Positions 6,927-26,426 of a DNA stretch of 64,000 nt are shown here, one piece after another. The first letter of the stretch is position 1; the number at the start of each line of letters is the position of its first letter. A program made the position numbers and the translations under genes. The DNA lies in assembly GCA_029256085.1 (NCBI GenBank), contig JAQSYP010000009.1:1-64000 (forward strand), read 5' to 3'. The notes under the pieces are model-generated. The model worked only from the letters and a program-made list of their open reading frames with translations, searched no databases and was not told where the DNA came from. Source of the stretch: Caryophanales bacterium (GTDB taxonomy: Bacteria; Bacillota; Bacilli; CAJFEE01).

Positions 6927-6955
6927 AATCATATTCCCCTTATAGTTATATTTTT

Positions 6956-7945: not shown

Positions 7946-7974
7946 ATGCCTTCTCCTCGATCAATTTTATATTT

Positions 7975-8742: not shown

Positions 8743-9479
8743 CGAAGTAGCCTCTCTAAACTTTTTCTTATTTTTAAGAATTCTTGTGTGTATATAAATT
8801 CAGAACATCTAGGTCTTGATAACGGTATTTTTACCTCTATACAGCTTTTTTCAAAACGTTTTAAAACATAGATTCTGTCACTAAGTAAAATAGCTTCCTC
8901 CAAGTCGTGAGTTATAAATAAAACTGTTTTATTCAGATCTTCCCATATTCCTAACAACCACTCATGCATTGATCGCTTGGTAAAGCTATCAAGTGCACCA
9001 AACGGTTCGTCAAGTAGTAAAAGGTTCTTTCCAGTCATTAGTGTTCTAAGAAATGCAGTTCGTTGCCTCATGCCGCCTGATAACTCATGAGGGTAAAATT
9101 TTTCATAGTCCGAAAGACCAAACCTAATTAACCACTTTCTAATTCCTTCTTTTTTCTCCTCAAGACTGCCTTTTGTAATCTCTATTGGAAGAATTATATT
9201 ATCTAGTACCGTCCTCCATGGTAATAGCAAGTCCTTTTGTGGCATATATCCTACTTTACCAAGTCGTTGGTGTGTAAGTTTACCATTAAGAATAATCTCG
9301 CCCTGCTCAGGTTGAAGCAACCCAGAAATCAATCCAAAAAGTGTACTTTTACCTGAGCCACTCTCACCGATTATTGAAACAAATTCACCAGCTTGCACAT
9401 GTATTGAAATATTATCTAGAACGCTCTTTCCAACTCCAGTATCTGTAAACGAGTATGAAAGTTCATTGACCGTTAACAT
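8739..9479 (-). CDS. thiZ: ThiZ-like ABC transporter ATPase
   Basis: A 246-residue ABC ATPase, first gene of the thiamine operon. Walker A GESGSGKST (about residues 37-45), Q-loop MPQKDLLLPW, signature LSGGMRQR, Walker B LLLLDEPFGALD and the His switch FITHDLEEA are all intact. A strong GAGGAGG ribosome-binding site lies just inside the 3' edge of the riboswitch-linked terminator region, so both transcription and translation are downstream of TPP sensing. Confidence 0.88.
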   Translation of the reverse strand: MLTVNELSYSFTDTGVGKSVLDNISIHVQAGEFVSIIGESGSGKSTLFGLISGLLQPEQGEIILNGKLTHQRLGKVGYMPQKDLLLPWRTVLDNIILPIEITKGSLEEKKEGIRKWLIRFGLSDYEKFYPHELSGGMRQRTAFLRTLMTGKNLLLLDEPFGALDSFTKRSMHEWLLGIWEDLNKTVLFITHDLEEAILLSDRIYVLKRFEKSCIEVKIPLSRPRCSEFIYTQEFLKIRKSLERLLR

Positions 9480-9508
9480 TTTTTAACCTCCTCTTTTAAA
9501 AAATAAAA

Positions 9509-9541
9509 ACCCACTCACTTTCATAGGAAAGGAGTGGGTAG
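9509..9541 (-). terminator. Riboswitch-controlled intrinsic terminator
   Basis: On the minus strand ACCCACTC/GAGTGGGT extends into CTTTC/GAAAG around an ATAG loop (one bulged A), followed by TTTTTATTTTTT. Its place between the TPP aptamer and thiZ indicates transcription attenuation when TPP is bound. Confidence 0.88.
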
Positions 9542-9589
9542 ATTGTCTCTGTCATTAAACAAATAATTGTCACGACAAATCGTTCTATC

Positions 9590-9677
9590 AACTTCCCTAC
9601 GCTGGTATAATCCAGATCAGGTTCAAAGGGTCTAGAACAATAGTTCAGTCTCAGCCACTAATGGCCCCCCTAGTTTC
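9590..9677 (-). promoter_or_regulatory. TPP riboswitch aptamer (THI box)
   Basis: The minus strand shows the conserved THI-box parts in order: GGGGGGCC, GGCTGAGA, then ACCCTTTGAACCTGATCTGG, ATTATACCAGCGTAGGGAAG, with closing AACT/AGTT. It controls the thiZXY-thiM-thiD-thiE operon and is predicted to stop transcription at the following terminator when thiamine pyrophosphate is plentiful. Confidence 0.97.
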
Positions 9678-9712
9678 AATCGATCATCATATTAAGTTAA
9701 AAACTATTTAAA

Positions 9713-9742
9713 ACTATAGCATAGCTTAATTTTTATTGTAAA
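9713..9742 (-). promoter_or_regulatory. Predicted sigma-A promoter of thiamine operon
   Basis: On the minus strand TTTACA (9737-9742), an 18-bp spacer and TATAGT (9713-9718) lie about 36 bp upstream of the TPP aptamer. The interval 9743-9950 upstream is AT-rich; I see only a short GATGAATA/TATTCATC hairpin at 9766-9789 and no gene. Confidence 0.6.
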
Positions 9743-9951
9743 GTATTTTAAGTTCTTTTATATAGATGAATAATTTATTATATTCATCATGGGACAAATT
9801 ATTATATTTAATATTATGAATAAACATTCTTGCGGGCCAATTAAGACTGTAAATGCTTTTAAAAAAATAACCCACAAAATATGATTCAAATTAATATATT
9901 TGCACTCTTCTTATTAAAAATTGTTTATACTTTCTTTTTTAACCAAAAAAA

Positions 9952-9976
9952 GCCCCCAACCAAAATGGTTGAGAGC
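9952..9976 (-). terminator. Displaced original rpsI terminator
   Basis: GCCCCCAACC/GGTTGAGAGC stem followed on the minus strand by TTTTTTT. It is nearly identical to the terminator at 28865-28890 that now serves rpsI. This one lies on the far side of the mobile element. Confidence 0.8.
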
Positions 9977-9993
9977 CTTTGAAAGTGCCTGAA

Positions 9994-10058
9994 AATTAAC
10001 GCTTTGAGAACTGAGGAGCACGACGTGCACCTTTAAGACCGTATTTCTTACGTTCTTT
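9994..10058 (-). repeat. attR: 65-bp direct repeat (rpsI tail)
   Basis: Identical base for base to 28906-28970. It covers the last 20 codons of rpsI and its TAA. It is the target-site duplication flanking the integrated element. One base further on (10059) the two copies diverge, marking the element end. Confidence 0.95.
9996..10058 (-). pseudogene. rpsI 3' remnant
   Basis: Twenty C-terminal codons of ribosomal protein S9 ([10 protein letters not shown] to FSKR) plus stop, with no start codon or upstream coding sequence. It was cut off from rpsI by insertion of the element, which carries its own copy of this tail. It should not be annotated as a gene. Confidence 0.9.
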
Positions 10059-10108
10059 AATCTTTATATATAATAGCAAGAAAAATGAATAAAAGCAATT
10101 TAATTTAC

Positions 10109-10132
10109 GCCTGATTTATCAGGCTTTTTTTC
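10109..10132 (+). terminator. Plus-strand terminator at element end
   Basis: GCCTGA/TCAGGC stem and a 7-T run on the plus strand. No plus-strand gene precedes it in the integrated form. In the excised circle, int (plus strand) would read across attP straight into it, so it probably shields hsdS from antisense transcription. Confidence 0.7.
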
Positions 10133-10172
10133 GTTTTCATATAAATTAGAAAAATATCGTTATATATGTTTG

Positions 10173-10190
10173 GTGGTCAGAAGGTGGTCA
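10173..10190 (+). repeat. Paired GTGGTCA repeats (putative integrase arm sites)
   Basis: Two GTGGTCA copies with an 11-bp period, just inside the element's hsdS end. The same pair, same strand and same spacing, occurs next to int at 28823-28840. The two-ended distribution and helical phasing suit arm-binding by the tyrosine integrase. Confidence 0.65.
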
Positions 10191-10202
10191 CAAAATTGCT
10201 CG

Positions 10203-11714
10203 TTACTTTGCTTTTTCTTGTAATACCTCTTTTAATAATTCAATTGCGTTTTCTTCTGTTGGGTCATTTGTTCCAAGTTCACCCCGGAATGCTTTTTGTA
10301 GAATAGAATTTTTTAATACGTCCATTTCTAATATGGATTGTTTACAAATTTCTTCAACGGCATCAAATTTCTTAAATAAAGTATCGATCACTTTAACTAT
10401 TTCTTGTTGTTCCTCAAGAGGTGGAAGTGGTATTGCCATATATATAAGTCTTGTTAAACCCAAATCTTTATTTGTTACTCCCCTGGTTTGGGCTTGAGAT
10501 TGATTATAAACAAATCTACTAGTTAAAACATCTCTAAGGTAGTACGGTGATATATACGATTTAACTATCTTTAATAAAGCTAAGTGAACCCATATACTGA
10601 ACGGTTCAGTTTCTTCAACTACTGTAGCAATACCCGTTGTTCCACCTTTTGTTATAATTACATCTCCTAACTTAGCGTTTGTTCTTTTACAAAATTCTAA
10701 ATGGTCTTCTTCACTAACAAATTTACAATCAGTGAAATCTATACCCCTATACTTGATATTTCTGGTAGAAATAAAAGGTACTCCTTTATCCTCTTCAACA
10801 TAGTTAGGGGAGAAATGTGGACCATCTGAAACACTCCAAGTTACTTGATCAATACTAACCCATTGCCAACTTGATGGAATTTGAAATAAATCTCTGACAC
10901 CCTTTGTCTTATCTCCAAGATCAATTGGTACTGGTGGCGTATAACGTTTATTACTAATGTTTGTTTCTTTTAAACGTTTACGTTCATCTAATAAAGGTTC
11001 TATATGAACCCTCTTTCCCGTATTCCTACTTCTCCATTTTTCAGTTAACTCTCCTCTTATTGCTTTATCCAAAACAGCTGCTCTACGAAGTTCAAATGTT
11101 TCCTTTGTTTCGTCAATCAACTGCTTGGCTTCTTCAATTTTATTCAAAAGATAATCTAGTTTATCAGAAATTCGTTTTTGTTCATTGATAGGTGGTAGTG
11201 GAAAATTCATTTCCTCAATGAGCTTACCACTAATATTTGGTTGTGCTCCACCATAGGCTAGACTAAGTATTTCATCTTTTGACTTCTGTATAAAAAGGTT
11301 TTTATACGCCCTTTCTATCAACCTTCTGTCAATTTCCTTGATATTGCCAACCCGTTGATTTTGCATAGCATTTTCATTAGCGTAAAAAATCCCAGTCTTA
11401 CCAGTCGTTGCTCCTGACATCGCAATTAAAAGATCTCCCTTATTGATGATAAATCTTTCATTGTATAATTCATTTGGGACCTTTACAGCTTTTGATAAGT
11501 CATAAATTTTTCCTACTATATCCGAAATTCTAACGATAGGAATACCTTCTTCTATATAATCTTTACTTTTAAAAGCATAACCATTAACAAGACTCGCAAC
11601 TGTTCCAAACTTTACCCAAATCCAGTTATCCGGTAATTTATATGGTTGCTCTCCCTCGTCAACTAACGCTTCAAGAAACAATTCTTCAACTGTCTTTTGC
11701 TGATTCTTACTCAT
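10203..11714 (-). CDS. hsdS: HsdS, type I restriction-modification specificity subunit
   Basis: 503 residues with two target-recognition halves, each followed by a helical spacer. TRD1 is about residues 25-190, ending at PLPPINEQKRISDKLDYLL; TRD2 is about 280-440, ending at PLPPLEEQQEIVKVIDTLF. This is the classical Methylase_S layout that reads a bipartite DNA site. The ATG at 11714 overlaps the hsdM stop by 8 bp (ATGAGTAA) and has GGAG upstream; the longer reading from 11765 is unlikely. It is the last gene of hsdR-hsdM-hsdS and lies next to the element end. Confidence 0.93.
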   Translation of the reverse strand: MSKNQQKTVEELFLEALVDEGEQPYKLPDNWIWVKFGTVASLVNGYAFKSKDYIEEGIPIVRISDIVGKIYDLSKAVKVPNELYNERFIINKGDLLIAMSGATTGKTGIFYANENAMQNQRVGNIKEIDRRLIERAYKNLFIQKSKDEILSLAYGGAQPNISGKLIEEMNFPLPPINEQKRISDKLDYLLNKIEEAKQLIDETKETFELRRAAVLDKAIRGELTEKWRSRNTGKRVHIEPLLDERKRLKETNISNKRYTPPVPIDLGDKTKGVRDLFQIPSSWQWVSIDQVTWSVSDGPHFSPNYVEEDKGVPFISTRNIKYRGIDFTDCKFVSEEDHLEFCKRTNAKLGDVIITKGGTTGIATVVEETEPFSIWVHLALLKIVKSYISPYYLRDVLTSRFVYNQSQAQTRGVTNKDLGLTRLIYMAIPLPPLEEQQEIVKVIDTLFKKFDAVEEICKQSILEMDVLKNSILQKAFRGELGTNDPTEENAIELLKEVLQEKAK

Positions 11715-13161
11715 TTCTACCCACTCCAACTGGTTCAGTAGAAACCTTATCCTCTTCAACTTCACGTAGTTCAGTTACAACTTCATTCAACAACCCAAGT
11801 GCTTGTTCAAGCTTAGCAATTGCATCTTCTGCTGAATCAATAGGATCTGGTAGGTTCGCATATACCGATATAGATTCATCTGCAATTAAACCAATATCTA
11901 AACTGTAGTCTTTTTTCTGGATTTCTTCACGTGTAAAGACGTTAAACCTTTCATCTTTTATACTAAATCGATCTTCGGATAGAAATGCTTCAACAAAAGC
12001 CTCAAAGTGTTTTTCTGTTAAGGGGTTTCTTTTTCCAAAGCTAGACATATTCGTTCGTAAGTCATACACCCAAACTTCTTTTGTAGTATCCTTATCTGTT
12101 GCACCACGAGTGAAGAAAAGAACATTTGTCTTAACCCCTTGTGCATAGAAAATACCTGTAGGTAAACGAAGAATAGTATGTAAGTTACATTTGTCCAATA
12201 AATCTTCTCGGATTTTTGCTCCAATTCCACTTTCAAATAGGACGTTGTCTGGTAAAACCACAGCAGCTCGTGCTTCTCCATTTGGCTTTAGAGCACGATA
12301 AATATGCTGTAAGAAATTCAATTGTTTATTAGTTGATGTAAATGTTAAATCATCGCGTGTTGGTCTTTCTCCACCTTGCTTTGTCCCAAACGGTGGATTA
12401 GTCAAAATAACATCATAGTTTTTTAAGTTACTTCCAAGTTCAGAAAGAGTATCACCAAGAAAAATTTCACCATGAATGTCATGTAGTAAAGCATTCATCA
12501 TTGCAAGACGGTGAGTATCTTTTACAAGCTCAACCCCAGAAAATGCCTTATACTTTTGGAACTCTGCTTCTTTCTCCCCTAAATCAAAATAATCATCTGT
12601 TTTTAAACGAACATGTCGATCTGCTGCAATCATAAACCCAAATGTTCCAGCTGCTGGATCATTACAACGCTCTCCTGGTTGTGGATCAACCAATTTAACA
12701 ATTACATCTATTAATGGACGTGGTGTAAAATATTGACCCGCACCGGATTTTGTTTCACTCGCATTCTTCTCAAGTAACCCCTCGTAAAGATCACCTAACC
12801 CTTCTTCTTTTGCACTATACCAATCAAGCTCATCAATAGAACGTACAATTTTTTCTAGGTTTTTAGGCTCATCAATATTTGTTTTTGCATTTGTATAGAT
12901 TTGTTTTAGGATATCGTTTCCTTCGTTACCCAAATCAATAAGTAGTTTTTGATAATGTGTTTTTAGTTCTAGTCCATGAAGACTCACTAATGAATCCCAG
13001 CGATACTCTTCTTCAATAGACCCTTCGTTATCTGTTTCCTTCATCATTTTTAAAAATAACAAATACGTTAATTCTGTTACATATTGATGATAGGTAATAC
13101 CATCATCACGTAACACATTACATAAGTTCCACAGTTTCTGAACAATCTGTTGGTTACCCAT
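11707..13161 (-). CDS. hsdM: HsdM, type I adenine-N6 DNA methyltransferase
   Basis: A 484-residue modification subunit that methylates adenine to protect host sites and forms the complex with HsdS and HsdR. An N-terminal helical HsdM_N domain (about 1-125) is followed by the SAM-binding motif I NDPAAGTFGF (about 167-176) and catalytic motif IV NPPF (about 255-258). The length and order fit a standard EcoEI/EcoKI-like HsdM. It starts 4 bp after the hsdR stop and overlaps hsdS, so the three genes form one translationally coupled operon. Confidence 0.95.
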   Translation of the reverse strand: MGNQQIVQKLWNLCNVLRDDGITYHQYVTELTYLLFLKMMKETDNEGSIEEEYRWDSLVSLHGLELKTHYQKLLIDLGNEGNDILKQIYTNAKTNIDEPKNLEKIVRSIDELDWYSAKEEGLGDLYEGLLEKNASETKSGAGQYFTPRPLIDVIVKLVDPQPGERCNDPAAGTFGFMIAADRHVRLKTDDYFDLGEKEAEFQKYKAFSGVELVKDTHRLAMMNALLHDIHGEIFLGDTLSELGSNLKNYDVILTNPPFGTKQGGERPTRDDLTFTSTNKQLNFLQHIYRALKPNGEARAAVVLPDNVLFESGIGAKIREDLLDKCNLHTILRLPTGIFYAQGVKTNVLFFTRGATDKDTTKEVWVYDLRTNMSSFGKRNPLTEKHFEAFVEAFLSEDRFSIKDERFNVFTREEIQKKDYSLDIGLIADESISVYANLPDPIDSAEDAIAKLEQALGLLNEVVTELREVEEDKVSTEPVGVGRNE

Positions 13162-13164
13162 ATG

Positions 13165-16100
13165 TTATGCTTGCTCCCTTTCATCTTTTGTGTATAGTGC
13201 GTAGTTGATTTTACTCACAATTTCGTCTAGTTGTCCACCGAAGATCTTGTTTAGCTGCTTGTAGCCACCACGGCTCTTAAACGGCTCGACTTCAAAGGCC
13301 TTTTGCGGATCAGGATGAAGAACAGACTCTTTTAGCAATTGTTTTTCTATGCGCTCTAACCAGCCCTTTTGTACACTAGGCCATGCTTTCATCGCATAGA
13401 TCTTTTTCATAGCTCTCTTTATGCGCTCTTCATGGTCCATAAGCGGGTCACCTAATGCCTGCTGACGGATAAAGCTTATGATGTCTGCGGCAATATCCAC
13501 ATTTTTCGCATCACGCCACGCCGTCTGCAATGCCTTTTCTGTGAAGCCTTTTTGATCTAGTGCAATACGTAACTCTCGCAGTTGGTCACGTGTGAGTTCT
13601 TTCGGTCTTGTGCATACCACTTGCAAAGCTGGGATTAAATTCATATTCTCTTTTATAAACTGACCAAAGCTCTGTAAATAATCCTCTGGCTTTTTGGCGC
13701 TTCCATACCCGCGTGTTACCTCTTTTACCTCGTCCTCATGTGTCGAGATAAATTGAAGCACAGGTCTGCCTCTATTTTCATCGATATATTGAACAATATT
13801 TTGATTCTTCATCAACGTTTCAATGACATCATTAGGTTCTGCGGTTTTAATCCAATTCACAAACTCGTTAATCGTTTTTCCACCTGATAATATTTTAAAG
13901 TCGTCTTGATCCTTCTCATCCCACCGCTGTTTCTTTCGTTGAATTTTAGCGATAAGTTCTTCTTTGTGCTGCCGTTTCAAGCTGTCGTCATCAATTTGCT
14001 CTAATTCTTTTACCAATTGTTCTACTGTTACCTTAGGGCTTTTAACAACTGGCTTCATTTGTGTGTACGGCTTTAACGATTCATAAATACCGACTGCATC
14101 AAAAATAGAGAAATGATCTTTGCCAATCTCATCTTGTCTTCTTGTGGCACGTCCCAACATTTGCTCATACAAAATACGCGAGCGCACTCGTCGTAGAAAT
14201 ACAAGATTAACAATAGCAGGAACATCAACACCCGTCGTGAGTAAGTCGACAGTAACCACAATGTTTGGTAGCCGTTCATTTTTAAATAACTTAATTGCTT
14301 GTGAAGGATTTTTAATAGAGCCTGTTATTTTCATAACCGCATTATCATCGATAGGACCATGAATATCCTCTAACTCTTCTTTAAAAATTCTAACAACCAT
14401 ATCAGCATGATCATCAGTTGCGGCAAAAATTAATGTTTTCCCAAGACTTGTCGGATCAATATATTTAGCTAGTTCAGCTAAAATTACACGATTAAAGTTT
14501 TCCGTAATAACCATCTTGTTAAATTGTGTTACTTCAATATTAACTTCATCTTCTAACAACTCTGTTTCTATCTCTCCAGTACGAGTGTTATAAACTTCAA
14601 CAGTATCGCCTGCCTCCCAGTGTATACCAGATTGTTTAAGTGTTGTTTCAAATTGGTAAGGTGGTTCATGATCTATTAAATAACCATCCACGACAGCTTC
14701 TCGATAAGAATACGTAAATACAGGGCTACCAAATATCTCGACCGTATGCAGCGCTGGCGTTGCTGTTAATCCTACCTTTGTTGCATCAAAGTATTCAAGC
14801 ACTTGGCGGTATTTACTCACATAGTCCTGGTGATCTCGAAATAGCTCTTCTACCTCAGACATTTCTTTATCTAGCGTATAACCTCTGTGTGCTTCATCAA
14901 CAATGATGCAATCGTATTGATCAACCGTTGGGGTTTCTTCATCGCGCTCTGAATAAAATAATCGCTTTAACATACCCTGAACAGTAGCAATTTGTACTTT
15001 CGTTTCCGTATTTGGTTTAATATCCTCTAATGACTGTAGTTCAAAGATTTCTGTAAACGAATGATAATTCTCTAGTTTGGAATCTTTAAAGGCAGCCTCC
15101 GCTTGCTCACCTAATGCTGTTCGGTCTACTAAAAATAAAATTCGTTTGAAGCGGTTATGTTTAATCAGTCTATAGACAAGACCTATTGCCATCCTTGTCT
15201 TCCCTGTCCCGGTAGCCATAGCAAGCAAAACTTCTCTCTGATTTCTTTCTACCGCTTGCTCAACTGCTTTGATAGCTTTCTCCTGGTAGGGGCGTAGATT
15301 TAAGTAATCGAGCTTTTCATCACGAAGTTTTTCATTAGCCTTCTCTTCGTCTAGCTTTAATAACTCCTTTAAGCCTTTTGGCGAATACCAAGCTTTTAAA
15401 GGCCTTGGATGGTTAGTTGATTTCCTTGCATCTAAAAACCAAATGCCCGATCTCTCTTCAAATTGCTTAAGATAGGGTCTACCATTCGTAGCAAATAAGA
15501 ACGGAACAAAGTAGTCACCATATGGTTCTAGAATGATTTCTTCTCCCTTTTTTTCTACTAATCTTGCATAGTTCTTCGCCTGCTCAATGTCAGAAGGGAT
15601 GTTTTTACTTAGTCTTTTCGCTTCTATAATCCCTATAAGTTCTAATCCCACAAACAAGGCATAATCTGCAAATCCCTTTTTCAACGGCCATTCAGCAATC
15701 GCTAGATTCTTTCCCTTTTCAGGACGAGCGCCTTTACCATAGCGTAATTCTCTCGTATCGGCTACCCAACCCACTTCACGCAGCTGTTCATCAATGATGA
15801 CACGCGTTTCCTCTTCTGTTAGCTTTAGCTGTGTTCCGTGTACATTAGCGTCTTTCTTCCGTTTCAGCTTGTCCTCATCTGACACATAGTGCTGCTCTTG
15901 TCTCAATTTTTCAAGCTCTTGCTCAAGCTGCGCTACCTTTTCTTCATAGGAAGAGGATAGGTTATGTAGTTCTTCATCGTTCACTATACTCACAGGTGTT
16001 GGCTCTTTATAAGCAGGCTCAGTAAAGTCCCAATCGCCATATACCTGCATAAACCAAACACCTAGCCTATGTGCCATATGTAATAAGACTTCAGCTTCCT

Positions 16101-16407
16101 TCTGGGTTCCGAAGCCCTCGTGCATAGCCTTATTTCCTTTTTTTCGTATCGTATGCAAAATTTCCTCAAGCTCCTGTGAGATAAGGTCGTCTCTTCTTAA
16201 GGCATTTATGCGATCCGTTTGATTTGTATCATGTGTTTCCTTAATCTCTTCGTATGCTAATACATATTTTGTTAAAGTCTCCGCAAATACGCGCAGCTTC
16301 ATCAAGGTTGTGTTTGGATCTATGAAGACGTTTCTTTCTGCCGTTTCCCCCAAATTGGCTAAAATCTCCCATTTTTCAGAAAGAAAATTAAAGTTACTTA
16401 TCCCCAT
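13165..16407 (-). CDS. hsdR: HsdR, type I restriction translocase/endonuclease
   Basis: A 1080-residue restriction subunit. Order seen: N-terminal DUF4145-like helical domain (about 1-130), coiled coil (about 150-175), HSDR_N nuclease domain with D248 and E262-A-K264 of the PD-(D/E)XK fold, then the SF2 translocase with Walker A ATGTGKT (about 398-404), DEAH (504-507), TATP, TTGVDVP and QMLGRATRR. The EcoEI_R_C-type helical C-terminus follows. All catalytic motifs are intact, so the enzyme should cleave unmodified DNA. By eye hsdR is clearly richer in GC than the Septu-like operon in the same element, hinting at a different source. The start is ATG with a GGGG-type ribosome-binding site. Confidence 0.95.
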   Translation of the reverse strand: MGISNFNFLSEKWEILANLGETAERNVFIDPNTTLMKLRVFAETLTKYVLAYEEIKETHDTNQTDRINALRRDDLISQELEEILHTIRKKGNKAMHEGFGTQKEAEVLLHMAHRLGVWFMQVYGDWDFTEPAYKEPTPVSIVNDEELHNLSSSYEEKVAQLEQELEKLRQEQHYVSDEDKLKRKKDANVHGTQLKLTEEETRVIIDEQLREVGWVADTRELRYGKGARPEKGKNLAIAEWPLKKGFADYALFVGLELIGIIEAKRLSKNIPSDIEQAKNYARLVEKKGEEIILEPYGDYFVPFLFATNGRPYLKQFEERSGIWFLDARKSTNHPRPLKAWYSPKGLKELLKLDEEKANEKLRDEKLDYLNLRPYQEKAIKAVEQAVERNQREVLLAMATGTGKTRMAIGLVYRLIKHNRFKRILFLVDRTALGEQAEAAFKDSKLENYHSFTEIFELQSLEDIKPNTETKVQIATVQGMLKRLFYSERDEETPTVDQYDCIIVDEAHRGYTLDKEMSEVEELFRDHQDYVSKYRQVLEYFDATKVGLTATPALHTVEIFGSPVFTYSYREAVVDGYLIDHEPPYQFETTLKQSGIHWEAGDTVEVYNTRTGEIETELLEDEVNIEVTQFNKMVITENFNRVILAELAKYIDPTSLGKTLIFAATDDHADMVVRIFKEELEDIHGPIDDNAVMKITGSIKNPSQAIKLFKNERLPNIVVTVDLLTTGVDVPAIVNLVFLRRVRSRILYEQMLGRATRRQDEIGKDHFSIFDAVGIYESLKPYTQMKPVVKSPKVTVEQLVKELEQIDDDSLKRQHKEELIAKIQRKKQRWDEKDQDDFKILSGGKTINEFVNWIKTAEPNDVIETLMKNQNIVQYIDENRGRPVLQFISTHEDEVKEVTRGYGSAKKPEDYLQSFGQFIKENMNLIPALQVVCTRPKELTRDQLRELRIALDQKGFTEKALQTAWRDAKNVDIAADIISFIRQQALGDPLMDHEERIKRAMKKIYAMKAWPSVQKGWLERIEKQLLKESVLHPDPQKAFEVEPFKSRGGYKQLNKIFGGQLDEIVSKINYALYTKDEREQA

Positions 16408-16489
16408 GCTTACACCCCTATCAAATTTATATATAATTATAGTCTAACATCTTTTAATGATAGTAGCATTTAGAATAGAAACCTTTTAT

Positions 16490-16524
16490 AGAAAAAAAAA
16501 CAGCCATGCAATAGCTGTTTTTTG
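16490..16524. terminator. Bidirectional-looking terminator
   Basis: AAAAACAGC/GCTGTTTTT stem with an 8- to 9-nt loop. A run of A lies on one side and T on the other, so it can serve the minus-strand 200-aa gene that ends at 16649 and isolates hsdR from it. Confidence 0.75.
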
Positions 16525-16648
16525 ACTAAGTTAAAGGATCTTTAAAATGTAATGCCAATCCTTAAACTAATATATATATTACTGGTCCAGTGAATCCTCT
16601 ATCATCTTTATAACAAAAGTATTTATTAAGAAGAATGAATATTGCTAT

Positions 16649-17251
16649 TTACTTCCTAGTGAAGTCTTTCTTTATTTGATCAATATCTCTTCTAGTTATT
16701 TCTGAAATATATTTCAGTAGATCATCATATTTGTCACTATTATTGAGTTTTTTTAATCTCTCAACAAGACCCTCAAAACCCTTAAAATATTCACTTTGAT
16801 AATCTGAGTTGTTATAAAACTTAAAAAATTCAAGATAATCTTTTGTAGACATTTTATCTTTTATCTGTATAAGAATATCATTCCAATTTTTAATTCTTTT
16901 TTCATGTATAGGTTTTTTTAAGCTACTTCCTTCTTTTTTCTCATTTTTTATCTGTAGAATAAACTGTTCGATTTCAAGCATATATTGAAAAAGTTCATTC
17001 CTATTTTGACTATCCAATTCATATAGTAATTTAGCATTATAACGATTATAACGCCCTTTCCTATAATGTTCTTTTCCTTCTGTTTTGTTTGATTCTTCTT
17101 TCTTTTCTCTATGTTTTTTAACCGAATCTACTACACCTAAAAAATCTAATGCTGCTGTTATCTCTTTTCGGTTGTCTTTTAAAAATCCCCATGCTTTTGG
17201 TCCATATTTTTTTACCCCTTCTTTAATTGGCCCCATAGGTATTCTAGACAT
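16649..17251 (-). CDS. Hypothetical protein between the two defence operons
   Basis: A 200-residue, highly charged, mostly helical protein (many Lys/Glu, no Cys). It begins MSRIPMGPIKEGVKKYGPKA with a short moderately hydrophobic region (AALDFLGVVDSV) near residues 33-44 and has no clear signal peptide. I do not recognise the family. GGGGGGC before the ATG acts as ribosome-binding site. It stands alone between terminators and separate from hsdR, so it may be an independent accessory or defence gene; that is inference from location only. Confidence 0.65.
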   Translation of the reverse strand: MSRIPMGPIKEGVKKYGPKAWGFLKDNRKEITAALDFLGVVDSVKKHREKKEESNKTEGKEHYRKGRYNRYNAKLLYELDSQNRNELFQYMLEIEQFILQIKNEKKEGSSLKKPIHEKRIKNWNDILIQIKDKMSTKDYLEFFKFYNNSDYQSEYFKGFEGLVERLKKLNNSDKYDDLLKYISEITRRDIDQIKKDFTRK

Positions 17252-17444
17252 ATTTGCCCCCCTTAGTTAGTAAACTGAAACATCCATTTTAAATTAATAG
17301 ATTTTTGATATATATTCATCAACTATTATGGGTTTAACCCATTTACCAAGACCACCAAATTATTTGACACCTCGAATCATGGTTAAGCCCCTAACAATTG
17401 AATTTAAGAACACTCTAATTTTCCCATTAGGAATCAATTACTTT

Positions 17445-17486
17445 AATTATAGTAATTATTAGTTAAATTCAATAATTACTATAATT
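17445..17486. repeat. Perfect 16-bp inverted repeat
   Basis: AATTATAGTAATTATT (17445-17460) and its exact complement (17471-17486) with a 10-nt loop, all AT-rich, in the 635-bp non-coding stretch 17252-17886. It has no poly-T tail, so an operator, cruciform or origin-like element is more likely than a terminator. Its function is unknown. Confidence 0.7.
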
Positions 17487-17551
17487 CGACACTAATTCGT
17501 GAAATACCTTTACTAGATATAGACCTTTTCATAGTATGAGATTATTTAAAA

Positions 17552-17594
17552 AACCGAGAGTTAGCGGTTATATTGTTTATGCTAATCCTCGGTT
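17552..17594 (-). terminator. Terminator-like hairpin downstream of the Septu-like operon
   Basis: A 14-bp stem, AACCGAG..TTAGC with GCTAA..CTCGGTT (one mismatch, one wobble), and a 15-nt loop. On the minus strand it is followed by a short T run. It is the first such structure below ptuB, about 290 nt downstream, and may end that transcript. Confidence 0.55.
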
Positions 17595-17686
17595 AATAAT
17601 TTATTTTATATGAATACTAGCTATTAATACTTAGCAAGTTTATGTATATTGAGCCCTGAATTTACTATATCCGATAGTCATCTGTT

Positions 17687-17825
17687 ATACGCTCTTTTAT
17701 TTGTTGTATATATAATATGAAGAAACACAGATAAAAGCAATTTAATTTATGCCTGATTTTATAAGGCTTTTTCCGTTTTCATCGATGCTAGATAAATATT
17801 GTTATATGTTTGGTGGTCGGGGTCA
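17687..17825 (+). repeat. Decayed internal copy of the element end (vestigial att)
   Basis: Aligns along its length with the element end at 10048-10190. An att-core-like ATACGCTCTTTTAT (11 of 14 with the rpsI site) is followed by an exact 19-bp match (17731-17749 to 10089-10107), a degenerate GCCTG..AGGC hairpin with T run, TGTTTGGTGGTC and a shortened second arm repeat GGGGTCA. It marks an old junction between two elements within the island. Confidence 0.85.
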
Positions 17826-17886: not shown

Positions 17887-18558
17887 CTAAACACCCACTA
17901 GTGCTTTATTTAGCCTTTTTTGTAGAAAATACACAGCCACACCATAAAACTGCTTGTGTTGCCCATCAGCATTTTTAGATTCCCACTTGTCAATTAATTC
18001 TCTAATCTGTTTAGCTGTCCAATTGGATTTATTACTACCAAGTTGCTTTCTAACTTGATCATAGATGTCTGCACGATAATCTTTTAACCGTTGTAAATTC
18101 AAATTTAGATTTTCATTAATGTCTACATTTATATCAACTATTGAAGAACTTATCTTTCCATCTTTATTGTAGGTAATACTATCTATATGACTTTTTTTAG
18201 TCATGCATAGGGTTACCACCTTATCACCTTTAAATGTATCACAGTGTTGATAATCTTTAGGCTTTTTTCTCGATTGTATTTTTTCGTCACCATCACAAGC
18301 AGCAAACAGATTGTTGTAACTAAAGATTAGATGTTCTTGCTTACTACTCTTACAAAAACTTTGGGGTAAAAGATGCTCTATTTTAGTGGACTTATAATTA
18401 TTACGAATACGCTTCATACAATAACAGCAAATATATCCTTGCTCTTGTAGTAATGAAGTCCGAAGATCAGATTTATCTAAATCATCAAATCTAGTTGCCC
18501 CACTTAACCTTGATACAGTCCAAGATTTAGGTTCACTACCTTTAGTAATTAATAGCAT
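17887..18558 (-). CDS. ptuB: PtuB-like HNH endonuclease
   Basis: A 223-residue HNH nuclease of the PtuB/retron-effector type. The beta-beta-alpha metal site is visible: CCYC (44-47), I-E-H (H62) in IEHLLPQSF, YNNLFAACDG (N82/N83, C88) and HCDTF (H105, C106). In Septu systems the PtuA ATPase and PtuB nuclease together cleave nucleic acid upon phage infection. It starts 6 bp after the ATPase gene. Unlike retron-Septu loci there is no reverse transcriptase; unlike simple Septu, a methyltransferase and a specificity subunit share the operon. Confidence 0.85.
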   Translation of the reverse strand: MLLITKGSEPKSWTVSRLSGATRFDDLDKSDLRTSLLQEQGYICCYCMKRIRNNYKSTKIEHLLPQSFCKSSKQEHLIFSYNNLFAACDGDEKIQSRKKPKDYQHCDTFKGDKVVTLCMTKKSHIDSITYNKDGKISSSIVDINVDINENLNLNLQRLKDYRADIYDQVRKQLGSNKSNWTAKQIRELIDKWESKNADGQHKQFYGVAVYFLQKRLNKALVGV

Positions 18559-18564
18559 AAATAT

Positions 18565-19833
18565 TTAATCCCTTTCAAATTCAATAATACTATTCGCTCT
18601 AGTTATTCGTTTATCATCCTCACCCATCAATTTAGAAAGTTTAATTAAAATATTTTCAGCTTCATTGTATTTCTCTTCTTCGATTAAGTTAAATATAGTG
18701 TCAAAATCGTTTTCAATGTCATCAACATAAACATTAACACCCATCGCTTCATTCAATATTGAATCAAAATCACGTCCATAAGTATAAGGAGAATTAATTA
18801 TTTCTCCCTTATCAATGATAAAAACATTCTCCTTCCTCACATGAGGTAACATAATAGGAGAGTGTGTGGTAATTAGGAACTGTTGATTAGAATTTATTAA
18901 ATTTATTTCACTAATTAAGTCTATTTGCCAGGTAGGATGCAAGAAAGAATCAGGCTCATCAAGTAGAAATAATGTTTGATTATTAGAAAACAATTCACTT
19001 ACTGCATAAATTGTAATTAATTGTTTTTCTCCTTCACTTAAATCCATAAAATCCAATTGTGAACTGTGGTTTATTAACAATTCAATTGAATTTACCTTTA
19101 AGCACCCTGCCCTATATAGCCAATCTAAAGCAGTATAGAGATCATACTCATATCCAAATAAATCCTTAAGATTCATTAAATCTTCGTTAGTAGCAAGAAT
19201 AATTTTGTCATCATTTCCACTAAGTTTATAATGTTCTCTTAATTTCTGATACAGTGATTTGGCCGGTTCCCTTAAAGTACTTTTTTTCTCTATGGACAAC
19301 TCTATTCTAGTAAAATTATTTATACCAATCTTTTTTTCTATAAATTCACTTAATTGCGATCCCTTTTCAAAAGATAAAAGATATATAAATAAGAACGGAA
19401 ATAATTCAGGAGTTACATAATAAACAGGCATTAGCCAATTTAATTTACCAAGTGAGGCCATATATTCCATAAATAAATTCTCTTGTTCATGTATTACTTT
19501 TTCAAGTCTTTTTGTGGTACCGGAGTATAATACAACTAGATTAGGAGAATAGCTTAATCCCACCCCTAAATGACTTACCCTAACTTCCTCTCTTGTTTTG
19601 TTAGATAAGTGGTTCAATTGGCCATTATAAATACTATCAAGTAAGTAGGAGAAGTTGGTATCTTTTCTACTATAAAAACTAATAAAAATTTCCGTAATTG
19701 CCTCAATTAAATTAGATTTCCCCGAACCATTCTTCCCAATTAACAGTATTTTATTGTTTATAGAATTAGAGAGGTCTAATCTGAAATCTCTAAGGTTTTT
19801 ATAATTCTCTATATATAATTGATTAATTTTCAA
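18565..19833 (-). CDS. ptuA: PtuA-like AAA/ABC-type ATPase
   Basis: A 422-residue SMC/OLD-type ATPase: MKINQLYIENYKNLRDFRLD N-terminus, Walker A GKNGSGKS (33-40), signature-like LSEGEKQ (265-271), Walker B LFLLDEPDSFLHP (288-300) and the H-loop TTHSPIMLP (about 322-330). An AAA_15/AAA_21 architecture, as in PtuA and other defence ATPases. The ATG overlaps the stop of the upstream specificity gene by 4 bp, so its synthesis is tied to the DNA-recognition subunit. It probably senses infection and controls the HNH partner; the trigger is unknown. Confidence 0.85.
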   Translation of the reverse strand: MKINQLYIENYKNLRDFRLDLSNSINNKILLIGKNGSGKSNLIEAITEIFISFYSRKDTNFSYLLDSIYNGQLNHLSNKTREEVRVSHLGVGLSYSPNLVVLYSGTTKRLEKVIHEQENLFMEYMASLGKLNWLMPVYYVTPELFPFLFIYLLSFEKGSQLSEFIEKKIGINNFTRIELSIEKKSTLREPAKSLYQKLREHYKLSGNDDKIILATNEDLMNLKDLFGYEYDLYTALDWLYRAGCLKVNSIELLINHSSQLDFMDLSEGEKQLITIYAVSELFSNNQTLFLLDEPDSFLHPTWQIDLISEINLINSNQQFLITTHSPIMLPHVRKENVFIIDKGEIINSPYTYGRDFDSILNEAMGVNVYVDDIENDFDTIFNLIEEEKYNEAENILIKLSKLMGEDDKRITRANSIIEFERD

Positions 19834-21170
19834 TAAAAAATTGCCTCCTCAAATTCCATTTTAGCTTCCTTTTTTAGAGATTCAGATAATTCTCTTAACT
19901 TTACTACTTCACTTTTAATATTTTTAATATAACTTACAATTTCCTTTTGCACTTCCAAAGGAGGAGTTATAACCGGATAATTATTTATCATTTCTGCATT
20001 TAAATTGGGTTGGTTATTTCCACTCGCTAAAACACGTAAACGTTCATACTCGTTCATTAAATAAAACCATAAGAAGTCAGTATTAATTTTATTATTATCA
20101 AAATTATATAACACTGCACAGGCTTGATTAGTTGCTGCCTCAATTCCTAGTTTAGCAGTTCTACCTCTAGTTGCACCTTGCCCATACATGGCTATTATCA
20201 AGCTTCCTACAGGATAAATCTTAGCACTACTATCTTTTATTGCTTCCTCGGTTATCTTTTCCTCGGCATCAAAAATTGTGCTATTTATTACTTCACCTGT
20301 CTTTATCCAAGGTATTGTGCCGTTATAATAATCTTTTCTGTTCCTGCTAGGAGTTCCTCCACTACCAACTCTACATAATGAACTAATTATATTCATTTTA
20401 AAATTTGAAGTGATCTTAGTGTTTACAGCTGTTAAAAATTCAAACCCCCATTTGTTTAAGTTCGAAAATGATTTAATTAAAAAGCGTTTTGACTCACTTG
20501 ATTCATGTTCAGAGTCTATTCCTAATATTTCTTCTAGGTATCTTTTAATTTCATCCTCTAGTTTTTGGGATTTATTAACCATGAATTCAGCTTCTTCTAC
20601 CTTTTTATAATAATTTACCAACATCTTTTCCTGTTCTAATAAAGGCGGAAGAGGTATTTCACTGTTTAAAAATAAATCCTCCTGTAGATAATGCCGATTC
20701 GTTGTACCATTACTACTAGATTCCCAAATATCTTTAAACTGCTTTGTGGCAAGGATAAATGATAAATAATTCGGATTAATTATCGACGTTTCAATATCAA
20801 AGGTCCAAAAATTCCCTGTTATTATCCCTTTGTCAAGTTCTTCTGGAATAACACCAAAAGCTCCATTACGGGCATCTATTTTTGATAGTATTAATTGTCC
20901 AGCTTTAACTAGGTATTGTTCCTTCGTGCCTATTGAGTTTCCCTGGACTATATCCCTCAACACCACACCTTCATTGTTCATTTTTATTTTAATTCTCTTG
21001 TATTCAACATTATCCTGAATATTTATTTTAGTTTTATTCCTTTTTAAGAGGCTGCTTAATTTGACTGCCGGATACACCAAACTAATATTATTTGAAAGAG
21101 TTAAATACTGTATACTCCAATTTGTTAGATTTTTATAAGAAATCGATTTGATAAAATTCACCTTAGACAT
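19830..21170 (-). CDS. Type I-like HsdS specificity subunit of the Septu-linked operon
   Basis: A 446-residue protein with two Methylase_S-type halves. The first (about 1-195) ends in PLPPLLEQEKMLVNYYKKVEEAE; the second (about 225-430) ends in PPLEVQKEIVSYIKNIKSEVVKLRE. TRD2 contains RVGSGGTPSRNRKDYYNGTI and a GNNQPNLNAEMINNYP segment. It overlaps the methyltransferase gene by 13 bp and the ATPase gene by 4 bp. No hsdR partner lies in this operon. It is distinct in sequence from the HsdS at 10203-11714, so it should read a different DNA site. Confidence 0.88.
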   Translation of the reverse strand: MSKVNFIKSISYKNLTNWSIQYLTLSNNISLVYPAVKLSSLLKRNKTKINIQDNVEYKRIKIKMNNEGVVLRDIVQGNSIGTKEQYLVKAGQLILSKIDARNGAFGVIPEELDKGIITGNFWTFDIETSIINPNYLSFILATKQFKDIWESSSNGTTNRHYLQEDLFLNSEIPLPPLLEQEKMLVNYYKKVEEAEFMVNKSQKLEDEIKRYLEEILGIDSEHESSESKRFLIKSFSNLNKWGFEFLTAVNTKITSNFKMNIISSLCRVGSGGTPSRNRKDYYNGTIPWIKTGEVINSTIFDAEEKITEEAIKDSSAKIYPVGSLIIAMYGQGATRGRTAKLGIEAATNQACAVLYNFDNNKINTDFLWFYLMNEYERLRVLASGNNQPNLNAEMINNYPVITPPLEVQKEIVSYIKNIKSEVVKLRELSESLKKEAKMEFEEAIFY

Positions 21171-23422
21171 TTTGGACTTTTCAGCTCCTGTTCCTCATTT
21201 CCAATAACTCTTACCAAGTTCCCATTTTTTGCTAATTTGTAGGATATTTCCTTCTTTTCCGAATTCCAGAGCATAGTTTCTTTATTAAATTCGTTAAACT
21301 CCTTTTCAACATCTAAAAGTTCATTTTCACAAACTGCACCTGTTGTAGTAATCCCAGCTTTTTCAACCTTTGCTATTGGAATTTTGTAATCAAATAGAGC
21401 TTTTATCTTTTCCTTTATTTCAATTTCTTTTCTTTGGTTAATTACTTTTAGACACTCTTTGTACTCTTTATCCTTTTTTCTATTTGCATATTGAATATTT
21501 AAAGTATCTACATCAGGTATATATTTTTGATTTATTTCCTCCGTTACTAATTCCTGAATATTATTATATTTATCCTCTTCTTCTTGAGAAAAACGTTTTA
21601 TAAATACAAGACTAGGTTTTACTGTGGCACCAGCTGCTATAAAAACGTCTTGTGGAATTGAGCATATAAATAGTATTTTAGCTCGCCCTTCAAAATACTC
21701 TCTTACCTTTTGCATGTTAGAATTGTTAAGTATACCTTCAGGCAAAACAATTCCCATTCTTCCGCCTTTCTTTAGAAGTTTTAGACATCTTTCCATAAAA
21801 AGAACTTCGGTTAAGCCGGTGAATTTTCCCGTATCAAATAAGCTTAAAACTGAGTTTCCTATATTATCATCAGTTTGTCTTAGTGCCTCTTTATAAGCTT
21901 GTCCGTATCTTCTAACTAGTTTATTTATTGCCACTTCATCTCTAAATCTATCTGCTTCGGTTATTTTAAGACTTTTATCAATTCTGGCTCCAAATGGTGG
22001 GTTTGTTAGAATTACATCGAACCTTTCTTCAAATATTCCATTCACATTTAGTAGGCCATCATGATGATGAACTCCGCCATGCCCATCTCCATGCATTATC
22101 ATATTCATTTTAGAAGTTCGGGCCATACGAGAATTAGCATCAACACCATAAATACAGTTATGTGATAAATCGTATAATCTACTTTCAAAATTCCCCTCGT
22201 TAGATACTTCAAATTCTTTATTTAATAAATCAAAGATATTGTTAAGCTTTCTATTAATCTCGGTTTGCTCTGATTCAGATAGAGAGTCATAATCTTCACC
22301 CATGAGCTCATTCTTAAATTTTTCTTTATAGTATTGTATATCTAACTCAATTTTTTCTCTAATATATTCAAATGATTTAATTAAAAACCCACCACTCCCA
22401 CATGTTGGATCACATATTGTTTCACCTTCCTGTGGATCCAGGATATTGGTCATAAAATCAACTATTGTTCTGGGCGTGAAAAACTGGCCTAATTCTCCTC
22501 TAAAAGTTTTTCCTAGAAATTGTTCGAAGGCTATCCCTTTAACATCATCCGATGTATCAGATAAGTTATATTTTTCTAGTTCTTCTAGAATCGCCTCAAA
22601 ACTATTTTGTCTTATCCTAATTAGTTCATTTTCTTCAAAGAGTTTATCTTCGTTGTAAAAATTTTTTGTATTCATAAATAAGTACTGCATATACGGTAAA
22701 TCCAAATGTGTATTCTTTAGATTTGGGCGTATATTTTGTTCAAAAGTGAGTTCATCCTGTTTAAACTTTTCTTTAGTGAAAACTATACTTCCCTTATTAT
22801 TCTTTTCAAAATTAATTTTCATAAAAAGTACCTTACTAATCTCATCAAATGCAGCTTCCGGGGAAAGTTTATCATTGTTTCTGATAATACTATGACACCT
22901 AAATAATAATCTGGTAAATTCCTCCCTTGTAAATGTCTTTGTTTGAGAGAGTAATTCTAGTATTTTGTTTGTGTCATTTACTTCGTCTGCTTTAGGTATT
23001 GCTAATATTTCCTCTAGACTTTTAGGGAGATATTCTTTATTAATATTAAAGTATTTCGTTTCCTTTAAATTCGTGGTAACAAAAAAGGTTGCTCCTGCCC
23101 AAGCAGCATAATTATACCCTTGAAAGTAATCTTCTACGTGAATTTTTAAATTTTGGGACTTACACTCAACAACTATAAATGCTGCCTTTCCATCTTTCTT
23201 GTCCTCTTCACTTTTCCATATAACGATATCTGCTCTAGCCTTTCCTTGACCACGCTTTGAATTATTTACTATAACCTCTTGAGCCATTTGATTTATGGAA
23301 TAACCATATTCATTAACTAATTTCTTTATATATTCCTGTCGAACTCTTTCTTCGGGGGTTTCTACAAGCCATTTATTAATTAGTGGCGCAAATATTTTTG
23401 ATTCTTTTATTTGGATTTCCAT
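21158..23422 (-). CDS. N6-adenine methyltransferase with N-terminal HSDR_N-like nuclease domain
   Basis: 754 residues, much longer than a plain HsdM (about 500). The first ~125 residues look like the type I R-subunit N-terminus: VRQEYIKKLVNEYGY, then RADIVIW (D65) and VVECK (E86, K88), the PD-(D/E)XK pattern. A helical region follows, then the methylase with motif I DPTCGSGGF (338-346), a His-rich HGDGHGGVHHHD (about 445-455) and catalytic NPPF (474-477). It could both modify and nick/cut, as in type IIG-like enzymes, with the specificity gene downstream. A strong AGGAGG precedes the ATG. It is the first gene of the M-S-PtuA-PtuB operon. Confidence 0.88.
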   Translation of the reverse strand: MEIQIKESKIFAPLINKWLVETPEERVRQEYIKKLVNEYGYSINQMAQEVIVNNSKRGQGKARADIVIWKSEEDKKDGKAAFIVVECKSQNLKIHVEDYFQGYNYAAWAGATFFVTTNLKETKYFNINKEYLPKSLEEILAIPKADEVNDTNKILELLSQTKTFTREEFTRLLFRCHSIIRNNDKLSPEAAFDEISKVLFMKINFEKNNKGSIVFTKEKFKQDELTFEQNIRPNLKNTHLDLPYMQYLFMNTKNFYNEDKLFEENELIRIRQNSFEAILEELEKYNLSDTSDDVKGIAFEQFLGKTFRGELGQFFTPRTIVDFMTNILDPQEGETICDPTCGSGGFLIKSFEYIREKIELDIQYYKEKFKNELMGEDYDSLSESEQTEINRKLNNIFDLLNKEFEVSNEGNFESRLYDLSHNCIYGVDANSRMARTSKMNMIMHGDGHGGVHHHDGLLNVNGIFEERFDVILTNPPFGARIDKSLKITEADRFRDEVAINKLVRRYGQAYKEALRQTDDNIGNSVLSLFDTGKFTGLTEVLFMERCLKLLKKGGRMGIVLPEGILNNSNMQKVREYFEGRAKILFICSIPQDVFIAAGATVKPSLVFIKRFSQEEEDKYNNIQELVTEEINQKYIPDVDTLNIQYANRKKDKEYKECLKVINQRKEIEIKEKIKALFDYKIPIAKVEKAGITTTGAVCENELLDVEKEFNEFNKETMLWNSEKKEISYKLAKNGNLVRVIGNEEQELKSPKCLR

Positions 23423-23727: not shown

Positions 23728-24606
23728 TTATTTTATTTGTAATGTCATTCTGTAGTCACCTGTTAATAACTCAATAAATCTAGTATTATTATGAAGACGA
23801 CTGAATACACGCTCACCGATGGCCGTCGGTAAGTATTTTTCGTTTAAGTTGCTTGTATAGATCGTCGGCTTGCCAATTCTCTTGTTGACGATCTCAAACA
23901 ACTTATTTTTACTCCAGTCAAACTCATCCGTACTCCTTGCTTCAGACCCTATGTCATCTAGTATTAATAAGTCAAACTTTCCTAGATCATTTAGTATGCT
24001 TTCTTCTGTTTTACTCGCCCCTTGTTGATAGGTGGCCTTTATTTTAGCTAATAATGCCCCTGTAGTTATATAACCTACCAAAAAACCTTTATCCTTAATA
24101 GTTCTTGCTATCGCTGTTGCTAGGTGTGTTTTTCCTGTACCTGGGTTTCCGAGAAGAACCAAATTATATCTCTTATCTGGATTTTCTAAAAAGTTTTTTA
24201 CGTATTCAATAGCTGATATCTTTGCTTCATATATACTACTAGGCATACCTTCAATATAGAAATTTTTGAAACCCGCTTTTTTTAAATCCTCTGGTATATA
24301 CCAATACTCTTTACCAAATCGATTATTCAGTTGATCATGTAGTTGATGCTTATTATAGTCCATATCCTCTGATAACATCATTTTATCTGTACATGATTTA
24401 CACTTGATTTCATTTATACAAATAATTGGTATCCATTCATTTGTGCCATGTATTCTGTACTCTGCTATATTTGCCTCCCCATTACATACTGCACATAAAG
24501 TACTTGCCATTCTTGCGTCATAATCATCCCTTTCAGCAATCTCCTTAATATGATATTTCATATTGTTTTTAAACCTATCATGTAATAAGTTTTGAATACT
24601 TTGCAT
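23728..24606 (-). CDS. DnaC/DnaI-like helicase loader ATPase
   Basis: A 292-residue AAA+ ATPase of the IstB/DnaC family. An N-terminal zinc-binding region (C38xxC41 and C69xxC72) is followed by Walker A GNPGTGKTH (153-161), Walker B LLILDDIG (213-220) and sensor TSNL (about 251-254). Such proteins load the host replicative helicase at the element's origin. It lies 15 bp downstream of an O-like replication gene, the pairing found in lambda-like phages and satellites. An IS21 IstB helper is unlikely because no transposase is present. Confidence 0.87.
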   Translation of the reverse strand: MQSIQNLLHDRFKNNMKYHIKEIAERDDYDARMASTLCAVCNGEANIAEYRIHGTNEWIPIICINEIKCKSCTDKMMLSEDMDYNKHQLHDQLNNRFGKEYWYIPEDLKKAGFKNFYIEGMPSSIYEAKISAIEYVKNFLENPDKRYNLVLLGNPGTGKTHLATAIARTIKDKGFLVGYITTGALLAKIKATYQQGASKTEESILNDLGKFDLLILDDIGSEARSTDEFDWSKNKLFEIVNKRIGKPTIYTSNLNEKYLPTAIGERVFSRLHNNTRFIELLTGDYRMTLQIK

Positions 24607-24621: not shown

Positions 24622-25464
24622 TTAATACGGCAAATCATCTTCTAACCGTGTTATATCTTGAATTTCTTTTTTGCTAAGATTCCGTTTAACACCCTTTGTA
24701 TTATTAAACATATTTTTTAGTGTTGGAATTCTATAATTTTTTGATTTTGACCTATTATCAAATTCATCATTGTATTTTCTTACATCCTTGATCGTATACA
24801 TTCTTAAATTGCTTAGATGATTTAAAATACTATCAATATAGGATTCCGGATGCGATGGATTTTGCGACTTTGCTCTCCGAATAATTTCACATATTATTGC
24901 TTCTGGATCTTGAAATGAATTACTTTCAATCCACCTATTTAAAATTTGGTACATTTTCTTTGATAGCTTGCCAAAATTATTTTCATATTCAAGAAAAGGG
25001 TTTGGCTTATCATAATCAATGTTTATATATATTTCTTTATTTATTTCTTGATTGTCTATTTCACCTATAGTACCTTTATCAGAATTACCAAAGGTAATAT
25101 TGATACTTTGACCATTGGTTAGTTCACCATTGTCTAAATCACCGTACCCATTTCTACCAATCCATCTGTCAAAATCTTTAACAAAAGTTATTTTCCTATT
25201 ACAACCTGAACGTATCTCTTGAACTATTACATTACGCTTCTCAAGTATTTTTAATTCTCGTTGAATTTGTCTAGGGTTACATCCAGTAGCTTTACTTAAA
25301 AAGTTTAAGGACATATCATGGATCTTCCTATTAAACCCATATGTATATCGAAAAATAACAAATATTAATCTAAATTGTGTTGGACTCAACTTAACTTTTG
25401 CCAGTTCCTCCAAAAGTTGATTTGCTATTTTTGTATACCCTTTATCTAATTGTACATCAGCCAT
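24622..25464 (-). CDS. Phage O-like replication initiation protein
   Basis: 280 residues. The N-terminal ~100 residues match the phage replication protein O winged-helix type (YTKIANQLLEELAKVKLSPTQFRLIFVIFRYTYGFNRK, then an SKATGCNPRQIQRELKILEKRNVI recognition region). The C-terminal part is charged and probably contacts the helicase loader encoded next. The middle of the gene (about residues 105-150) has repeated CAATGGT-like words and a TTACC/GGTAA palindrome followed by AT-rich DNA, resembling the in-gene origin of lambda O. An AGAAGG-type ribosome-binding site lies upstream. Confidence 0.8.
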   Translation of the reverse strand: MADVQLDKGYTKIANQLLEELAKVKLSPTQFRLIFVIFRYTYGFNRKIHDMSLNFLSKATGCNPRQIQRELKILEKRNVIVQEIRSGCNRKITFVKDFDRWIGRNGYGDLDNGELTNGQSINITFGNSDKGTIGEIDNQEINKEIYINIDYDKPNPFLEYENNFGKLSKKMYQILNRWIESNSFQDPEAIICEIIRRAKSQNPSHPESYIDSILNHLSNLRMYTIKDVRKYNDEFDNRSKSKNYRIPTLKNMFNNTKGVKRNLSKKEIQDITRLEDDLPY

Positions 25465-26153: not shown

Positions 26154-26426
26154 TTATTGACCATTCTGCTGCATCCATTTAATTACATTTGATTTATTCA
26201 ACCTAATAACTTGACCCCGCTGAAAGTATGGTATGTCACCTTTTTCTATTAAACTACGTACAGTCGGTACACTTACTTTTAAGAAATTGGCAACCTCCTT
26301 AATGGTAAGAATTTCGGCTATATTATTCTCGAGATTAATTTCATATAATATATCTTTAATTACTAGCTTTAAATCATCGCGTTTTACAACAAATGAATCT
26401 GATGGTAGTTCTAAATTAACTCTCAT
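26154..26426 (-). CDS. Excisionase-like HTH protein
   Basis: 90 residues with a C-terminal MerR/excisionase-type winged helix: ILTIKEVANFLKVSVPTVRSLIEKGDIPYFQRGQVIRLNKSNVIKWMQ. This is the HTH_17 pattern used by Xis proteins and small regulators. It is divergent from the integrase side and overlaps the preceding Cro-like gene by 11 bp. It is the best candidate for the directionality factor of the integrase. Confidence 0.72.
   Translation of the reverse strand: MRVNLELPSDSFVVKRDDLKLVIKDILYEINLENNIAEILTIKEVANFLKVSVPTVRSLIEKGDIPYFQRGQVIRLNKSNVIKWMQQNGQ

Follow-up and report, generated by a model that had tools for sequence, protein, structure and literature searches.

The rpsI island and its outer ends

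The window (the whole stretch of 64,000 nucleotides analysed here) contains, at about 10.04 to 28.97 kb, an integrative element inserted into rpsI at its 3′ end. Two modules are distinguished in this island: a distal one, B (10.04 to ~17.25 kb), with a type I restriction-modification (RM) cargo, and a proximal one, A (17.7 to 28.97 kb), with the integrase and a Septu cargo. The arm at the outer left end is called L, and a similar sequence between the modules is called M. The features of the island are as follows.

9996 to 10060, minus strand: second, displaced copy of the rpsI 3′ end, from the former chromosomal tail
10035 to 10057, plus strand: attL core at the outer left end, intact
10049 to 10190, plus strand: L, functional-looking left arm of the putative distal element B, with a hairpin at 10109-10124
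10173 to 10178 and 10184 to 10189: arm-type repeats of L
10203 to 11765, minus strand: hsdS, type I RM specificity subunit (module B)
11707 to 13161, minus strand: hsdM (module B)
13165 to 16407, minus strand: hsdR (module B)
16649 to 17251, minus strand: 200-aa ORF without a family match, inside the junction stretch 16411-17686
17887 to 18558, minus strand: PtuB-like HNH protein (Septu-type, A cargo), its stop adjoining M
18565 to 19833, minus strand: PtuA-like ATPase (A cargo)
19830 to 21170, minus strand: second type I specificity-like subunit (A cargo)
21158 to 23422, minus strand: second type I-like methyltransferase, with an HSDR_N_2 domain (A cargo)
23728 to 24606, minus strand: DnaC-like helicase loader (A backbone)
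24622 to 25464, minus strand: replication protein O / DnaD-like protein (A backbone)
26154 to 26426, minus strand: small HTH_17 protein, excisionase candidate, present in most complete relatives
27652 to 28803, plus strand: tyrosine integrase of A
28823 to 28839, plus strand: right-end arm-type repeats GTGGTC (28823, 28834)
28908 to 29300, minus strand: rpsI (ribosomal protein S9), the target gene, restored by the element
28947 to 28969, plus strand: attR core inside the rpsI 3′ end

The integrase, the arms, the cores and the rpsI duplication mark one single outer pair of ends. A 23-bp core, AAGACCGTA-TTTCT-TACGTTCTT, was found exactly at 10035 and 28947 and nowhere else in the window. It is composed of two 9-bp half-sites, inverted with one mismatch, that flank a 5-bp spacer, a layout suggesting that the half-sites are core-type integrase sites. 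As in rpsI-integrating (McRI-like) islands, the integrase is located beside the restored rpsI 3′ end, and the rpsI 3′ end is present as a direct repeat at both ends (9966-10061, 95% identity to the right end). Just inside each island end, the word GTGGTC is paired with an 11-bp period. This pair was matched 26 times in 194 genomes, with many of the matches beside tyrosine integrase genes and none (0) for the reversed control pattern, and it seems to serve this integrase class generally as an arm-type word. The integrase of A contains arm-binding, SAM-like and catalytic domains, with the Arg, HxxR and His residues and a candidate Tyr present (GAR, HGLRH, LGH and a C-terminal Tyr), and is apparently intact. 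The ORFs that were scanned included none recognisable as conjugation or mobilisation genes.

The replication genes in the backbone of A are of phage type, and its cargo (17887-23422) joins PtuAB-like genes to a type I-like methylase (HSDR_N_2 + N6_Mtase) and a specificity subunit. This gene run has no HsdR and is an unusual mixture of Septu and RM genes; its methylase also gives a MADS2-like match, below the cutoff. The region of B, at 10.2-17.69 kb, holds hsdS, hsdM, hsdR and the 200-aa ORF only, and the latter has no match in Pfam, PADLOC, PHROGs or NCBIfam. The junction stretch (16411-17686) is AT-rich, with 27% GC, and the integrase-side half of B is missing there: no remnants of a B integrase, of replication genes or of a right arm were detected in 16.4-17.69 kb by blastn, tblastx and tblastn. 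An inverse-orientation TTTGGTGGTC-like word (GACCACCAAA) is located in the same stretch at 17345-17360, about 330 bp from M, and is either a chance occurrence or a further arm relic.

A second left-arm sequence between the two modules

The following parts were recognised at M.

17674 to 17696, plus strand: att-core remains, with the left half-site and spacer gone (ATAGTCATC TGTTA) and the right half-site kept (TACGCTCTT)
17688 to 17819, plus strand: M, putative vestigial left arm of the proximal element A, from the alignment and a set of 19 left arms
17751 to 17767: degenerate terminator-like hairpin
17813 to 17824, plus strand: arm-type GTGGTC and a truncated second repeat (GGTC)

In a local alignment, M (17688-17819) pairs with L (10049-10179) at 80% identity and with a score of 130, compared with a top score of 42 for 500 first-order Markov shuffles of both 500-bp stretches, and a chance origin of the match is excluded. 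The match of about 130 bp to the true left end that the sequence-only reading had described is therefore real, and further parts that it named are present in M, namely the hairpin, the GTGGTC word, an exact 19-bp block (ATAAAAGCAATTTAATTTA) common to L and M and absent from other known ends, and a shortened second arm repeat (GTGGTCGGGGTCA in M vs GTGGTCAGAAGGTGGTCAC in L). That reading had named a repeat scattered at many unrelated sites as the finding that would count against it. A search of the bacterium's own genome returned M and L as the only two copies (E = 6e-25 for the pair) and, from the rest of the genome, short matches of 20-40 bp only, all with E > 0.003; a common dispersed repeat is thus ruled out.

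The att-core-like word that had been ascribed to M proved to be half a core: the right half-site, TACGCTCTT, matches at 8 of 9 positions, whereas the left half-site and spacer match at 5 of 14, a random level reached by 33% of window positions. Homology of M ends exactly at the spacer/half-site boundary of the core, and the likeness between L and M is limited to the arm, from the core edge on one side to the arm repeats on the other. The hairpin is weaker in M (−5.1 kcal/mol) than in L (−9.2 kcal/mol), and in the tree of 19 left arms the branch of M (0.356) is longer than that of L (0.133). Arm-repeat spacing is lost in M and kept in 9/9 left ends found without the arm pattern (L and eight of relatives), the ends found via the pattern keeping this spacing by construction and not being counted. 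Since one half-site and the spacer are gone and the second GTGGTC is damaged, M is read as a dead end, a vestige in which the inner att site would no longer work.

M is located about 60 bp past the ptuB stop codon, and L likewise adjoins the stop of hsdS. It had been placed exactly between the hsdRMS and Septu modules; it does lie between them, but the 200-aa ORF and about 435 bp of AT-rich DNA separate it from hsdR. Among the known ends, L and M are each other's nearest (support 0.93), and L is nearer to M than to the corresponding end of a Fictibacillus element, although the latter has the same cargo as L.

Related elements at rpsI

This Fictibacillus element, from Fictibacillus enclensis NIO-1003 (L076), is a free-standing rpsI element of ~12.7 kb with its own integrase (71%). 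It carries hsdR (83% aa), hsdM (84%) and hsdS (36%) in the same order as B, beside the left end. At the DNA level, the window and the Fictibacillus element match without a break over 9946-10295 (78%), which covers the rpsI tail and the left arm and extends into hsdS, and also over 11777-16419 (76%), the match stopping just upstream of hsdR. Past hsdR, the Fictibacillus element continues with ~5 kb of backbone followed by the integrase, both of which are missing in the window. The backbone of A is related to that of the proximal element in Bacillus sp. FJAT-44742 (L006), where the integrase (70% aa), the HTH protein (49%), the replication protein O (47%) and the DnaC-like protein (58%) are found in the same order. 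B has a relative that is free at rpsI, in Fictibacillus, and of A the backbone was recovered in FJAT-44742; a free element with the Septu/methylase cargo was found in 0 of 194 genomes of the family of Neobacillus, in a search run without a positive control.

An internal relic is also present in FJAT-44742. It comprises a C-terminal fragment of a second integrase (44 aa), a right arm that has decayed, an rpsI tail and a core; the DNA beyond is unrelated and has no left arm. The FJAT-44742 island is a composite as well, its internal relic mirroring M of the window. Genome G561 has an almost intact internal junction ~5 kb away from rpsI: its rpsI tail and core lie between a well-preserved left arm and a right arm in decay (GTAGTC..GTGATC), the arrangement expected in a tandem array. 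An internal right-end relic was found in G468. In four genomes (G494, G539, G553 and G585), left-end homology stops at or a few bp from the core edge, and for outer ends such stops may simply result from erosion of the dead rpsI tail. The other genome analysed from the source organism's family, G001, has an rpsI gene but neither this integrase nor this end.

Several further loci were recorded. In G492 (L213/L215), the reverse complement of L213 contains at ~18489-18778 the attP order of right arm, rpsI tail, core and left arm, the last of these decaying; this junction is chromosomal and carries a C-terminal integrase piece. It was dropped as a candidate intact tandem junction, no rpsI gene having been found in the ~59 kb read on that side, and a stray attP-like copy is as likely. 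G553 (L211) has two core and left-arm starts in a row, at ~1395-1425 and 6835-6864 and 5.4 kb apart; non-rpsI DNA precedes both, and no integrase was found. They look like stacked left ends, the second of which lies at the end of the contig. In G494 (L206, reverse complement 316-6631), a left end with a 24-bp core is followed by another type I RM set, and a left end with defence genes next to it is seen repeatedly in this rpsI element family (G494; G443, by eye from translations). An rpsI element with an eroded left end in G522 (L099, reverse complement ~4100-15100) carries a cargo that resembles, by eye from translations, a YcaO/TOMM-type peptide modification cluster. Viral contigs scanned for the integrase and the arm pattern yielded relatives of the integrase class, and no further rpsI composite was recognised among them.

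Probable origin of the island and comparison with known systems

How did two cargos come to share one integrase? The island is probably the product of a tandem insertion of A and B at rpsI, after which the integrase side of B was lost and the inner att site was inactivated. Three ends are present at one target (L, M and the right end), and the inner one comes from an element end, as in tandem accretion. Two related elements would have inserted in tandem at rpsI, and the intermediate would have held a hybrid att between them, consisting of the A left arm, the core and the B right arm. B would then have lost its integrase, right arm and backbone, and the B side of the hybrid att would have been removed up to the core edge, so that the A left arm and half a core remained and the internal site was inactivated. 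In the composite a single integrase, a single right end and a single outer left end are left, each of them sequence-intact, and recombination by the A integrase between the outer cores (10035 and 28947) is predicted to mobilise all ~18.9 kb together. Direct observations are the repeat, the half core, both intact outer cores, the free B relative and the A-backbone relative.

The sequence-only reading had proposed that a first element ended at M and that a second, now integrase-less, module was inserted at the same site. The accretion of two elements at one site is supported by Fictibacillus, FJAT-44742 and G561, but the sequence does not show which of them came first, since a newcomer could have used either att site of an element already in place with the same outcome. 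B most likely lost its integrase half after joining, although it could have decayed before. The loss may have been a plain deletion or may have been brought about by the integrase at the core; the sharp core edge favours the latter, whereas the spacer mismatch speaks against it. Counted against accretion are the absence of a free Septu-cargo element among the genomes searched, the absence of a B integrase or right-arm trace in 16.4-17.69 kb, and the closeness of L and M, which is unlike two elements of very different sources. This closeness could have come about if the tandem copies underwent gene conversion or if both elements were drawn from one local pool.

The same parts could also have been joined by another route, in which the attP of A recombined with a secondary core-like site in B, or the integrase joined an internal att to such a site, and the integrase side of B was then lost between two right ends. 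An integrase-made junction would account for the exact stop of M homology at the spacer/half-site boundary and for the recurrence of core-edge breaks at G494, G539, G553, G585 and the internal relic of FJAT-44742, a clustering at the core edge that is not expected of random deletions. Tyrosine recombinases usually need identity in the overlap, however, and the spacer of M agrees with that of the core at only 2 of 5 positions; at the outer ends, decay of the dead rpsI tail together with selection on the core also yields a sharp edge. This route is considered unlikely. Less probable still is an in-place duplication, by which the left end of a single element was doubled (or converted) as the cargo grew, no second integrating element being involved. 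The grouping of L with M and the 19-bp block restricted to these two ends would be expected from such a duplication, but hsdRMS with the left end also exists free-standing, in an element that has an integrase of its own and another backbone, and the likeness of L and M is confined to the arm, from the core to the arm repeats.

A current function of M, as the terminator of the Septu operon or as an alternative att site kept for that function, is the least credible of the explanations and is given hardly any weight. Its position behind ptuB, like that of L beside hsdS, and the presence of a hairpin are compatible with such a function, whereas the weaker hairpin, the lost half of the core, the damaged arm repeat and the long branch speak against it. 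A leftover terminator role is possible, yet it leaves the arm and core parts of M unexplained.

With tandem accretion as the preferred reading, two anti-phage cargos, a type I RM system and a Septu/methylase cluster, would have become one mobile unit. The window, FJAT-44742, G561 and G468 would then form a series of fusion stages at one site, and this series makes random versus integrase-driven loss of the inner att testable by breakpoint counts. As a tentative and rather doubtful generalisation, Bacillaceae rpsI islands may grow by a ratchet, in which erasure of half of the inner att at the core fuses tandem elements, possibly by action of the integrase at secondary sites. If so, defence systems of separate elements would be locked into one mobile package.

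Tandem rpsI islands are known from Macrococcus caseolyticus, in which McRImecD-1 and McCI-IMD0819 lie side by side, and McRImecD-1, McCI and the composite were all shown by PCR to excise, singly or together (PMC5341023). Related integrases beside rpsI in Bacillus are mentioned in the same work (PMC5341023). The Macrococcus islands and the island of the window have in common a tyrosine integrase at the rpsI 3′ end, direct repeats with a common rpsI core and a tandem pair. In Macrococcus, however, the middle repeat is usable, whereas in the island of the window half of the middle att has been erased and the second integrase has been lost, so that movement is predicted for the entire island alone; Macrococcus has mecD as cargo, this island defence genes.

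Accretion of ICEs and IMEs with cis-mobilizable elements (CIMEs) is a standard model (review PMC5704250, citing Pavlovic 2004 and Bellanger 2011). The window agrees with it in that tandem elements occupy one target gene and one of them is decayed, integrase-less and movable only with its neighbour. Like a CIME, B has no integrase or transfer genes. A CIME, however, keeps both attL and attR by definition, whereas the hsdRMS part here has no inner att, half of that site having been erased, and B is therefore not filed as a CIME.

The Fictibacillus NIO-1003 element shares with the window the integrase family, the core, the left arm and the location of hsdRMS beside the left end, but it is single, with a complete backbone, its own integrase, another replication module and another hsdS. 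The FJAT-44742 composite shares the module A backbone, the fusion of two elements and an internal end relic; there, unlike in the window, it is the distal element whose right end survives as the relic (integrase C-terminal piece, right arm and core), and the proximal left arm is lost. Tandem accretion is thus already known, also at rpsI, and the island of the window adds a case in which half of the inner att is erased.
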